A stretch of 64,000 bases of DNA, taken from Nocardioides jejuensis (GTDB taxonomy: Bacteria > Actinomycetota > Actinomycetes > Propionibacteriales > Nocardioidaceae). Positions within the stretch are counted from its first letter, which is position 1, and every line of letters begins with the position of its first letter. The notes beneath the pieces were generated by a model. The model had not been told where the DNA came from and ran no database searches. It saw only the letters and a list, made by a program, of their open reading frames with translations. The position numbers were made by a program, and so were the translations under genes. The stretch lies in contig NZ_SJZJ01000017.1 of NCBI RefSeq assembly GCF_004337475.1, forward strand, positions 1-64,000, read 5' to 3'. This document shows, one piece after another, positions 9,285-18,103 of this stretch.

Positions 9285-13088
<3,804 letters not shown>

Positions 13089-14895: not shown

Positions 14896-15029
14896 GCGCT
14901 TGTTCCTTCCAACGGGGACGTGTCGGCCTCATTGTGCCTTGGGGACCGACCTAGGCTGGACGTAGACCTGCACGCGCCACCTCCCGCCGGTTGGCGGCGT
15001 CGCAGCACCCCCGTGAGGCGGTGGCAATC

Positions 15030-15383
15030 ATGGCCACTGACAACATCTCCCGACTCACCCTGCGCGACCGCGTCGAGCCGTCGCTGCGCGACGGTGACTG
15101 GTGGCCCGAGAGCCGGGTGCTCGAGGACGAGCTGAGTCATCTCTTCGCCCTCTGGCCACCCTCCGCCGGGGAAATCACCCGCGTCCTCTACTCGCCGCCG
15201 GACTGGGACGACCACCCGCGTTCGGCACCCGTGCCCGGACGGCGGGTCAAGACGGGTTCCTTCCCCCGCGACGACACCCATCAGCTGGTCCTGGTCATGC
15301 GGACTGGACGACGCCTGGCGATCGGCGTGATCCCACCAGGTACCGCTGCCGGAGAGGCTGCGGAACTGCTCGCCGCGAGGTGA
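15030..15383 (+). CDS. DUF5994 family protein
   Basis: A 117-residue actinobacterial protein of unknown function. The start MATDNISRLTLRDRVEPSL and the phrases DGDWWPES and YSPPDWDDHPR fit the DUF5994 family, which pairs an Arg-rich first half with a compact beta-rich second half. I chose ATG 15030 because GAGGCGG lies 7 nt upstream and earlier codons lack similarity. The stop is 5 nt before the desaturase start, with the desaturase ribosome site lying over the stop codon, so the two are cotranscribed and probably coupled. Confidence 0.8.
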   Translation: MATDNISRLTLRDRVEPSLRDGDWWPESRVLEDELSHLFALWPPSAGEITRVLYSPPDWDDHPRSAPVPGRRVKTGSFPRDDTHQLVLVMRTGRRLAIGVIPPGTAAGEAAELLAAR

Positions 15384-15388
15384 CGGCC

Positions 15389-16459
15389 ATGTCCTCCGAC
15401 AAGCTCCTCGGACTGCCTACAACGGCAGGGGAGGACCGACCCTCGGTGACCGGCCACTACCAGGGCGGGTACGGCGATCTGGCCCGCCGCGTGCGGGCGG
15501 CCGGGCTGATGCAGCGCCGCCCGGCGGCGTTCGTCCGGCACCTCACGGTCCTGGTCGCCGCAACCGTCGCAGTCGTCGTCCTGATGGCGACGCATCGCGA
15601 CGCCTGGTGGCTGCTCGCGATGGCACCGCTGATGGCGGTGCTCGCCACCCGCACCAGCTTCCTCGGCCACGACGTGGGCCACCTCCAGATCACCCGGAAC
15701 ACCACAGCCAGCCGTCGCCTCGGCCTGCTGACGGGCAACCTGCTCAGCGGCCTCGGCTACGGCTGGTGGGTGCCGAAGCACAACGCCCACCATGCGCACC
15801 CGAACGACCTCGGCACCGACCCCGATGTGCGACCCGGCGCGCTGATCTGGGATCCGGTGCAGGCCACCGGGCGGCGCGGAGCGATGGCGTGGTGGACCCG
15901 GCACCAGGCGCTCCTCTTCTTCCCGCTGCTCGTCTTCGAGGCCATCAACCTCCACGTCGCCAGCATCCGTTCCCTGTTCAGCCGGGGCCTCCGCGGACGG
16001 ACCGGCGAGGCAGCGATGCTGGCCCTGCACTTCGCCGGCTACACGACGCTCCTGGTGCTGACGCTGACCTGGCCCCAGGCGGTGGCGTTCGTGGTCATCC
16101 AGAAAGGCCTCCAGGGTCTCTACCTGGGCTGCTCGTTCGCCCCGGGACACAAGGGCATGCCGGTCCTCGACGCAGACACTGCACGCGATCCGCTCCTGCG
16201 CCAGGTGCTGACCTCCCGCAACGTGCGCGGTGGCCCGGTTACGGACGCCGTCCTCGGCGGCCTGAACTACCAGATCGAGCACCACCTGTTCCCGAGCATG
16301 CCCCGCGCCAACCTGCGCCGCGCTCAACCCCTGGTACGGGCGTTCTGCGCGGAGCACGAGATCCCGTACCTCGAGTATCGGGCGTTCGCCTCGTACGCCG
16401 CAGGGTTGCGGCACCTGCGCCGGGTCGGCGCGACCGCAGGCGAGCCCGTGCGCGGGTAA
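15389..16459 (+). CDS. Membrane fatty-acid desaturase (acyl-CoA/acyl-lipid type)
   Basis: A 356-residue integral membrane di-iron desaturase that inserts a double bond into acyl chains. All three histidine boxes are present: HDVGH (94-98), HNAHH (131-135) and QIEHH (295-299), interleaved with about four hydrophobic segments. The first 50 residues are basic and may face an electron donor; no fused cytochrome b5 or ferredoxin domain is seen. The start is ATG 15389 with GCGAGG 6-9 nt upstream; a GTG nine bases earlier is also possible. It is in one operon with the DUF5994 gene. Regiospecificity cannot be predicted. Confidence 0.93.
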   Translation: MSSDKLLGLPTTAGEDRPSVTGHYQGGYGDLARRVRAAGLMQRRPAAFVRHLTVLVAATVAVVVLMATHRDAWWLLAMAPLMAVLATRTSFLGHDVGHLQITRNTTASRRLGLLTGNLLSGLGYGWWVPKHNAHHAHPNDLGTDPDVRPGALIWDPVQATGRRGAMAWWTRHQALLFFPLLVFEAINLHVASIRSLFSRGLRGRTGEAAMLALHFAGYTTLLVLTLTWPQAVAFVVIQKGLQGLYLGCSFAPGHKGMPVLDADTARDPLLRQVLTSRNVRGGPVTDAVLGGLNYQIEHHLFPSMPRANLRRAQPLVRAFCAEHEIPYLEYRAFASYAAGLRHLRRVGATAGEPVRG

Positions 16460-16513
16460 CGCCGATAGGCTTCCCGAACGCGTCGGTCCTCGCCCAGAGC
16501 CTCGGAGGTCATC

Positions 16514-17194
16514 CTGAACACCGTCACCCCGGGTGGGATCCGTGCCGTCCTGTGGGACATGGACGGCACCCTCGTCGACACCGAGCCCTACTGGATGGAG
16601 GCGGAGTTCGACCTCGCCGAGCAGTACGGGGGCAGATGGACGCACGAGCACGGCCTCGCCCTCGTGGGCAACGACCTGCTGGAGTCGGGTCGCTACATCC
16701 TCCAGCACATGTTCGAGCCGGACTCGCCGGGCGCAGCGCTCACGCCGGAGCAGGTCGTCGAGCTGCTGCTCGACGGCGTCGTGGCACGCGTCGAGAAGGC
16801 CGTGCCGTGGCGTCCTGGCGCCCGCGAGCTGCTCGACGACCTGCTCGACGCCGGTGTGCCGTGTGCACTCGTCACGATGAGCTACCAGCGCTTCGTCGAC
16901 CCGATCCTCACGCAGCTGCCGGCAGGCGCCTTCGCCGAGATCGTCACCGGTGACCGGGTCAGCCAGGGCAAGCCGCATCCCGAGCCGTACCTCAAGGCAG
17001 CAGCCGGTCTGGGCCTCGCGCCCGAGGAGTGCGTCGCGATCGAGGACTCCAACACGGGTGCCACGTCTGCCGAGGCTGCCGGGTGCACCGTGCTCGTCGT
17101 GGAATGCCACGTGCCCGTCGCGCCGGGGGAGCGGCGGGTCTTCCGGGACTCGCTCGAAGGCCTGACGGTCGACGACGTCCTGACGCTGCGCTGA
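16514..17194 (+). CDS. HAD-family phosphatase, apparent CTG start
   Basis: A haloacid-dehalogenase-like phosphatase of about 226 residues, beta-phosphoglucomutase subgroup. Motif I is DMDGTLVDTE, with nucleophile Asp15 and acid/base Asp17. Motif II is ALVTMS, motif III Lys is in GKPHPEPYLKA, and motif IV is CVAIEDSNTG. The first ATG in frame (16559) falls inside motif I and would delete the nucleophile. Between the upstream stop (16466) and that ATG there is no ATG, GTG or TTG. The best start is CTG 16514, five bases after GGAGG (16504-16508). The substrate is likely a sugar phosphate or nucleotide but is unknown. Confidence 0.9.
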   Translation: MNTVTPGGIRAVLWDMDGTLVDTEPYWMEAEFDLAEQYGGRWTHEHGLALVGNDLLESGRYILQHMFEPDSPGAALTPEQVVELLLDGVVARVEKAVPWRPGARELLDDLLDAGVPCALVTMSYQRFVDPILTQLPAGAFAEIVTGDRVSQGKPHPEPYLKAAAGLGLAPEECVAIEDSNTGATSAEAAGCTVLVVECHVPVAPGERRVFRDSLEGLTVDDVLTLR

Positions 17195-17215
17195 CCCGGC
17201 TGACGGAAGCCGGCC

Positions 17216-18103
17216 TCAGTCGTCGGTCAGGTCCGTGCCGAGGTCGCCCGCCGCGGCGAGCGCCTCGCGGACCAGGGGCAGCGGCAGCAGCTCACCACCG
17301 AACTCCGGGCAGTGCGCCTGGAACGAGCACCAGTCGCAGAGCCGTGACTTGTTGGGCCGCCAGTCGCCGCTCAGCTCCGCCGAGCGGATGGCGCCGAAGA
17401 CCGCATTGACCTTCCGCTCCAGCGACCGCAGGTCTGCCTCGTCGGGCGCATAGCTGACGGTCTCGCCGTTGCCGAGGTAGATCAGCTGCAGCATCGCCGG
17501 GATGACGCCGCGCGTCTTCCACCAGACGAGCGCGTAGAACTTCATCTGGAAGAGCGCCTTGGCCTCGAAGAACTCGCCAGGACTCCTTCCGGTCTTGTAA
17601 TCGGAGATCCGCACCCGTCCGTCAGGTGCCTCCTCGACCCGGTCGATGAAACCCCGGATCAGCAGCTTCGAGTCGAGCACGGTCTCGACGTACAGCTCAC
17701 GCTCGGACGGCTGCAGGCGCGTGGGGTCCTCGAGCGTGAAGTACTTCTCCAGCGAACGCCGACACTCGTCGAGCCAGGCGCCGACCTCGGGGCCTTCCTC
17801 GCCAAACATCGAGGCAAGCTCCGGCTCCGCCTCGAGCAGCGCCTCCCACGAGGGGACGACCATCTCCTGAGCCCGCTCGGGGGTGCGGTCCCCGGCATCC
17901 AGGTCGAAGAGGTCCTCCAGCACCTTGTGCACGACGGTGCCGCGGACGGCGGCGGGGGACGGAGCCTCCGGCAGCTTGTCGATCGACCGGTAGCGGTACA
18001 GCAACGGACAGGTCATGAAGTCGCCGGCCCGGCTGGGGGAGAGCGCGCCGAGCACCTCGACCCCGTCGACGGGGGTGGAATGGGCTTCAGCGGGCGAGCT
18101 CAT
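17216..18103 (-). CDS. RecB-like PD-(D/E)XK nuclease with C-terminal Cys cluster
   Basis: A 295-residue stand-alone RecB-family exonuclease domain. It starts with LSPSRAGDFMTCPLLYRYRSIDKLPE, the usual PDDEXK entry with a first Cys. It continues through GTVVHKVLEDLF and the nuclease core RISDYKTGRSPGEF (Asp and Lys of the D...DxK motif). It ends with CDWCSFQAHCPEF. One N-terminal and three C-terminal cysteines match the arrangement that holds a 4Fe-4S cluster in AddB/Cas4-type nucleases. The start is ATG 18103, with TAGATT (18115-18110 on this strand) 6 nt upstream. Genes of this kind sit beside the proteasome region in many actinobacteria; the role is probably DNA repair. Confidence 0.88.
   Translation of the reverse strand: MSSPAEAHSTPVDGVEVLGALSPSRAGDFMTCPLLYRYRSIDKLPEAPSPAAVRGTVVHKVLEDLFDLDAGDRTPERAQEMVVPSWEALLEAEPELASMFGEEGPEVGAWLDECRRSLEKYFTLEDPTRLQPSERELYVETVLDSKLLIRGFIDRVEEAPDGRVRISDYKTGRSPGEFFEAKALFQMKFYALVWWKTRGVIPAMLQLIYLGNGETVSYAPDEADLRSLERKVNAVFGAIRSAELSGDWRPNKSRLCDWCSFQAHCPEFGGELLPLPLVREALAAAGDLGTDLTDD

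Follow-up and report, generated by a model that had tools for sequence, protein, structure and literature searches.

Where does translation of a phosphatase gene begin when its reading frame offers no standard start codon ahead of the catalytic motif? The question is raised by a HAD phosphatase gene in a 64,000-nucleotide stretch of Nocardioides jejuensis (contig NZ_SJZJ01000017.1, positions 1 to 64,000; hereafter the window). The open HAD frame, 16469-17194 on the forward strand, is preceded by an in-frame TAG (16466-16468), and the first ATG, GTG or TTG downstream of this stop is ATG 16559, the codon directly after the nucleophile Asp of AVLWDMDGT (AVLWDMDGTLVDTEP). A preliminary description made from the sequence alone had pointed out both the lack of a standard start up to this ATG and its position just behind the Asp, and reading the frame bore out both. 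Read from CTG 16514, the gene (16514-17194, forward strand) encodes a HAD-IA phosphatase of 226 amino acids that begins with LNTVTPGGIRAVLWDMDGTLVDTEP, matches PF13419 (HAD_2, 3.7e-29) and TIGR01509 (HAD-IA, 63.9 bits against a cut-off of 29.4), and contains HAD motif I, DxDGT, as DMDGT. The proposed start codon (16514-16516) lies 5 nt behind a GGAGG ribosome-binding site (16504-16508) that is conserved in the leader alignment, and the good spacing noticed earlier was thus confirmed. Our results suggest, with a probability of roughly 0.78, that this HAD gene is translated from CTG 16514, that its CTG leader represents the right attachment arm in a family of elements with a tyrosine integrase, and that the window holds a 1.6-kb remnant of such an element.

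Recurrence of the putative CTG start within the genus

The HAD gene was found in 212 of 215 genomes of the genus, and 156 loci, including that of the window's genome, were examined (loci and genomes carry our own L and G numbers). Seven loci without a readable motif were dropped before counting, which left 149. The 56 of the 212 genomes whose HAD matches were not among the loci examined mostly had weaker matches, so the 149 loci lean towards closer genes. In 40 of them an in-frame ribosome site is followed by CTG and by two codons resembling A(A/G)C-ACC. Of these, L181 directly follows metH and was moved to the metH-coupled class, leaving 39 CTG loci, window included, in which a block of the type GGAGG-N5-CTG-A(A/G)C-ACC stands in frame with the HAD motif.

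The block is strongly biased towards the HAD frame. In its strict form, a Shine-Dalgarno (SD) site, a codon and A[AGC][CT]AC[CGT], the codon is CTG in 36 in-frame cases, AGC in three and GTG in one, and out of frame there is no CTG and a single TCC. In the relaxed form, GGAGG plus CTG, 40 matches are in frame versus one and three in the other two frames. When codon -22 was picked by GGAGG alone, with no regard to the codon itself (n=26), it was CTG in 22 loci, GTG in three and AGT in one, never ATG or TTG. A looser ribosome site (n=34) gave 24 CTG, three GTG, two ATT, one ATC and four others, and in the ATT and ATC cases (L013, L129, L174) the next codon is CTG. The linker from CTG to motif spans 10-26 codons across the 39 loci and exactly 22 in 24 of them; in 11 of the 39 there is no standard start anywhere from stop to motif. 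This in-frame recurrence makes CTG initiation, and not a base error, the best reading, and judging from sequence the HAD gene very likely initiates at CTG 16514.

By their starts, the 149 loci fall into 67 metH-coupled loci, 39 with the CTG leader, three with GTG at the CTG place and 40 others, the last often with a leaderless-looking GTG after a TAGGGT-like box. metH, recognised in the window from its Pfam domains (9288-13088, forward strand), is the direct upstream neighbour of the HAD gene in many relatives. The distance from metH to the HAD motif is at most 60 nt in 54 of the 67 metH-coupled loci, and in none of the 39 CTG loci is metH this close. Two loci that follow metH, L136 and L173, have no ATG, GTG or TTG before the motif save a GTG inside it, and L181 has none either, only a CTG just past the metH stop.

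The CTG state is scattered over the genus. A quick tree was built from 156 HAD proteins, 149 of the genus and seven from elsewhere, with poor support for 58 of its 153 inner branches. On it, the CTG label (40 rows, including L065 described below) requires 35 changes, against a mean of 35.6 for shuffled labels, and 228 of 500 shuffles were as low. The metH-coupled label requires 36 changes against a shuffled mean of 50.3. Close relatives can differ in start state, as seen in L208/L218, L177/L210, L021/L011 and window/L111 (90% identity). As for the comparison with close relatives proposed in the preliminary description, the insertion with the CTG leader at its end is absent from the two closest, L111 and L112, which use another, leaderless-looking GTG elsewhere.

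The block was also present in four of 80 named-record loci, which come partly from the same genomes (L050, L053, L068 and L065). L065 belongs to Isoptericola, a different actinobacterial genus, and is a HAD orthologue without standard starts in which AGGAG is followed by CTGAACACC 11 codons before the motif. A class-level search of 394 genomes gave three matches and was too strict to judge spread. The other match of the short pattern in the window's own genome (L237) is antisense inside a long open reading frame (ORF), presumably an acyl-CoA synthetase, and was taken as chance. A control with neighbouring genes (RecB, M50, TrmI and metH, with queries from stop to stop) returned 'no standard start' in 4 of 61 cases, with three more at stretch ends; it was badly defined and was not used.

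Insertions and integrase elements at the HAD motif

Alignments between sister genomes extend as far as the upstream neighbour, break off there and begin anew at the HAD motif, with extra DNA in the CTG genome between the two aligned parts. Where both sides could be seen, the insertions measure 2.2 kb (L242/L243), 5.0 kb (L246/L247), 5.4 kb (L248/L249), 2.1 kb (L257/L258) and 0.6 kb (L259/L260), and the window carries 1.6 kb (14908-16543) relative to both L253 and L254. Three further pairs (L244/L245, L251/L252, L255/L256) could be compared on the right side alone. Across all nine CTG loci of this comparison, similarity returns no more than 17 nt ahead of the motif, so that the insertions end at AVLWDMDG. 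Counted from the motif, the alignment of the window with its closest relative (L253/L111) breaks off at -1637 (14907) and is taken up again at 0 (16544), and the matching interval in L253 is about 24 nt. Linker codons 2-10 (16517-16543) would have arrived with the leader.

In five of 209 genus genomes (G198, G227, G158, G075 and G221) we found a tyrosine integrase (E <= 1e-60), identified beside the leader in G198 by PF00589 (3.5e-20), and in all five it lies 0.6-0.7 kb from the leader and the HAD gene. The leader codon is CTG in four of these genomes and GTG in G221. Left and right ends of four elements share the sequence TGGGACATGGACG, the putative recombination core of the family, which in the window occupies 16553-16565 (forward strand) within HAD motif I. 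The second copy of this core lies at a distance of 47.35 kb in G227, 31.2 kb in G075 and 4.85 kb in G036; in G158 it is on another contig, and we infer that the two element ends of that genome belong together. At the left ends stand displaced gene starts, namely a CTG leader in G036, a GTG leader in G227 and starts of the leaderless type in G075 and G158. G036 has two leaders: the sequence of the left one reads LSTAYSRGTDRRTPGGDLPPPPRAVLWDMDGT before it departs from HAD, and the right one runs into it.

The core is flanked by matched repeats. In all four elements an arm repeat, GCAGGTCAG, stands at -48 and +51 of the core, and CGTYGCATG-like pairs stand near -115/-103 and +125/+137. At least one kind of arm repeat was detected in 18 of the 39 CTG loci and in two of the three with GTG at the CTG place, versus one of the 67 metH-coupled loci and two of the 40 others. 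Twelve CTG loci have both arm repeats, and their linkers are 21 or 22 codons long. Because the repeats are matched around the core, the 5' untranslated region (UTR) and the linker probably also serve as an attachment arm, and this double use can explain both the nucleotide conservation of the linker and its usual length of 22 codons.

In the window, TAGGCT (16466-16471, forward strand) forms a -10-like box aligned in register with the TAGGGT of other leaders and holds the upstream in-frame stop; from the alignment, this stop is probably not transcribed. The window leader also retains the block GGAGGTCATCCTGAACACC. The insertion contains a fatty acid desaturase gene (15388-16459, forward strand, start approximate; PF00487, 9.5e-37 over the whole open frame) and a small ORF (15030-15383, forward strand, start approximate). 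The desaturase has no match in the two closest relatives (E <= 1e-30) and one match, of 46% identity, among 11 other genomes searched. Rfam at gathering scores gave no match in 14900-17300.

The open frame, the recurrent CTG block, the insertions, the paired cores, the matched repeats and the linked integrase can be read directly from sequence, and on this basis the following course of events can be proposed. Recombination of the elements would take place at TGGGACATGGACG, which falls among the codons for the HAD nucleophile motif, and integration would sever the HAD gene from its old start, metH-coupled or leaderless. Their right attachment arm, the leader with its -10 box, 5' UTR, GGAGG, CTG and 10-26 codons, would then equip the gene with a promoter, a ribosome site, a CTG start and an in-frame N-terminus, all of them new, and translation of HAD would begin at CTG 16514 behind a strong ribosome site. 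Decay would strip the integrase and the arm repeats and leave the -10 box, GGAGG and CTG, and in the window it may have reduced the element to the 1.6-kb remnant with the desaturase. The dependence of the HAD gene on this leader is our proposed reason for its retention.

Several further observations concern the elements and their surroundings. The 31-kb element of G075 (regions L277:16422-19501, L278:1697-4731 and L255:99-1175) carries MzaB/C/D/E-like defence proteins and, close by, a piece of a C-5 cytosine methylase. Further core copies are present in G007, G198 and G135 and on contig C2 of G075. The core copies of G065 and G134 were rejected as element ends, as both sit in other HAD genes. 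In another genus of the family (G537; L261, reverse strand from 8211; L239), a different ORF, which resembles part of a P1/S58 peptidase, is joined to the leader and AVLWDMDG; this is perhaps a secondary integration site. Since the protein is not HAD beyond MDG, L261 was not accepted as the same HAD gene in another genus and was kept out of the CTG counts. Around the metH/HAD locus of the sister genomes L246 and L247, imperfect palindromic repeats (ACGTTTGGTCCCCAACGACA...) occur several times in both.

Competing explanations for the CTG leader

A number of results weigh against our interpretation. A sigma-70 consensus scan found no promoter. The codon-position differences of the linker are only weakly skewed (2244/2735/3114; in the nearest 40 pairs 190/262/249, highest at position 2), which fails to prove that the linker is coding and was not used as proof. 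The Xis-like helix-turn-helix ORF by the G198 leader scores 26.5 bits for HTH_17, just under the Pfam cut-off of 27, and a search of viral_contigs gave no relative of the integrase. Among the 39 CTG loci, a close integrase is present in only three genomes (G198, G227, G075) and a second core near HAD in only four (G227, G075, G036, G084), that of G084 being 0.7 kb away with one mismatch and without a leader; two CTG genomes, G003 and G146, have no core match at one mismatch. We infer that CTG loci without integrase or second core are decayed elements or belong to other lineages of element. The window's genome itself has no integrase, no second core (TGGGACATGGACG occurs once) and no arm repeats, and its link to the element family is therefore weaker than the case for its CTG start; from sequence comparison, its insertion may be read as a decayed remnant.

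Four other explanations can be set against ours. That an assembly base error or a frameshift conceals an ordinary start is exceedingly improbable. The window sequence does rest on a single assembly, and a base change was one of the two options left by the preliminary description; it is contradicted by the SD-CTG block, with like spacing, in 38 of the 148 other readable loci, 10 of which offer no standard start anywhere between stop and motif, and the same 38 loci strongly favour the other option, a true CTG start. Relatives with ATG or GTG at the CTG place, together with evidence of a base error, were named there as what would speak against a CTG start; only three loci (L154, L205, L216) have such a codon, GTG in each, versus CTG in 22 when only the ribosome site guides the choice. 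These three also bear on the possibility that the CTG is internal or untranslated and that the true start lies elsewhere, at a GTG or TTG up- or downstream or at a rare codon such as ATC 16511, since there GTG substitutes for CTG at the very same place. This possibility is helped by the 28 of 39 CTG loci that do have some standard start in frame between stop and motif, a point that also weighs against our reading, and by the ATC or ATT directly before CTG in many loci. However, in 17 of the 39 the stretch between stop and CTG is free of standard starts, ATC 16511 is only 2 nt from GGAGG, and the codon before CTG varies (ATC, CCC, GCT, ACC, GAA, ATG) whereas CTG is constant. We therefore regard a start elsewhere as quite unlikely.

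A little less improbable, but still unlikely, is that the CTG leader is the ancestral HAD start, repeatedly lost by deletion beside metH, with no mobile element involved in most loci. The leader does lie close behind metH in L138 (131 nt) and L013 (241 nt), most CTG loci have no integrase, and on the tree the metH-coupled loci cluster more than they do when labels are shuffled. In contrast, the CTG label is as scattered as shuffled labels and close relatives differ in state, and the displaced starts, core copies, arm repeats and integrase of the intact elements require insertion. The alternative to which we give the most room, doubtful as it is, holds that the CTG is conserved as DNA bound by integrase or Xis and that its translational use is accidental. 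The leader indeed overlaps the attachment arm with the repeats at -48 and -115/-103. Yet the 9-mers around CTG never recur in the left arm, and 21 of the 39 CTG loci keep SD and CTG with both arm repeats missing. The latter argument is partly circular because the loci were selected by CTG, and the same absence counts against the CTG leader being an element arm. Initiation at CTG 16514 in a leader delivered by an integrating and excising element would nonetheless be the account that best fits the loci taken together.

Relation to known systems and meaning of a probably mobile CTG start

Rebuilding of a gene after insertion at its 5' end has a published precedent in the dusA-targeting islands such as IMEVchUSA3, for which expression of the target gene after insertion was measured and was lower (PMC8409611). 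Those islands occur in Vibrio and relatives and target dusA with an ATG start (PMC8409611), whereas the elements described here would target HAD in a Nocardioides-like genus and supply a CTG start. The SXT/R391 integrative and conjugative elements are alike in entering the 5' end of a gene; they are conjugative and their target is prfC (PMC2791158, PMC4344509), where the present elements have a HAD gene as target. Our literature search, in a limited library that does not cover papers outside it, returned no paper on this HAD target or on element-supplied CTG starts. Thus, the dusA islands are the precedent. What is new is the HAD target and, most of all, the conserved CTG start, and the host group differs as well.

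Conserved weak starts such as the AUU of infC show that a rare start can be retained even though one base change gives a common one, and infC is autoregulated by IF3. The CTG leader is similar in that a rare start is kept, and differs in that the start would be element-borne. In one study, CUG replaced AUG at two of 61,358 reconstructed AUG starts in 36 genome triplets (PMC5622118). CTG starts are thus very rare in bacteria, and yet one recurs in more than a quarter of the readable loci of this genus.

The initiation machinery discriminates against CUG (PMC11497404), which makes a low, set dosage of HAD plausible. It is tempting, if speculative, to suppose that these elements, some with defence genes, keep a deliberately weak CTG in their attachment arm, where one stretch would act as integrase arm sites, as promoter and 5' UTR and as N-terminal coding sequence. 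Such a start may have been selected for a set low HAD dosage uncoupled from metH, possibly varying with initiation fidelity or one-carbon state, and the CTG scar left after decay would reset expression of the host gene. The part of a review available on this point gave no direct support for a link between one-carbon state and CUG initiation.

For annotation, the locus is a warning, as a start placed at the nearest ATG would drop the catalytic Asp from the predicted HAD protein. In intact elements the CTG can be followed back to its source at one end of a mobile element, which opens a direct way of asking whether weak starts are chosen by elements that rebuild host genes.
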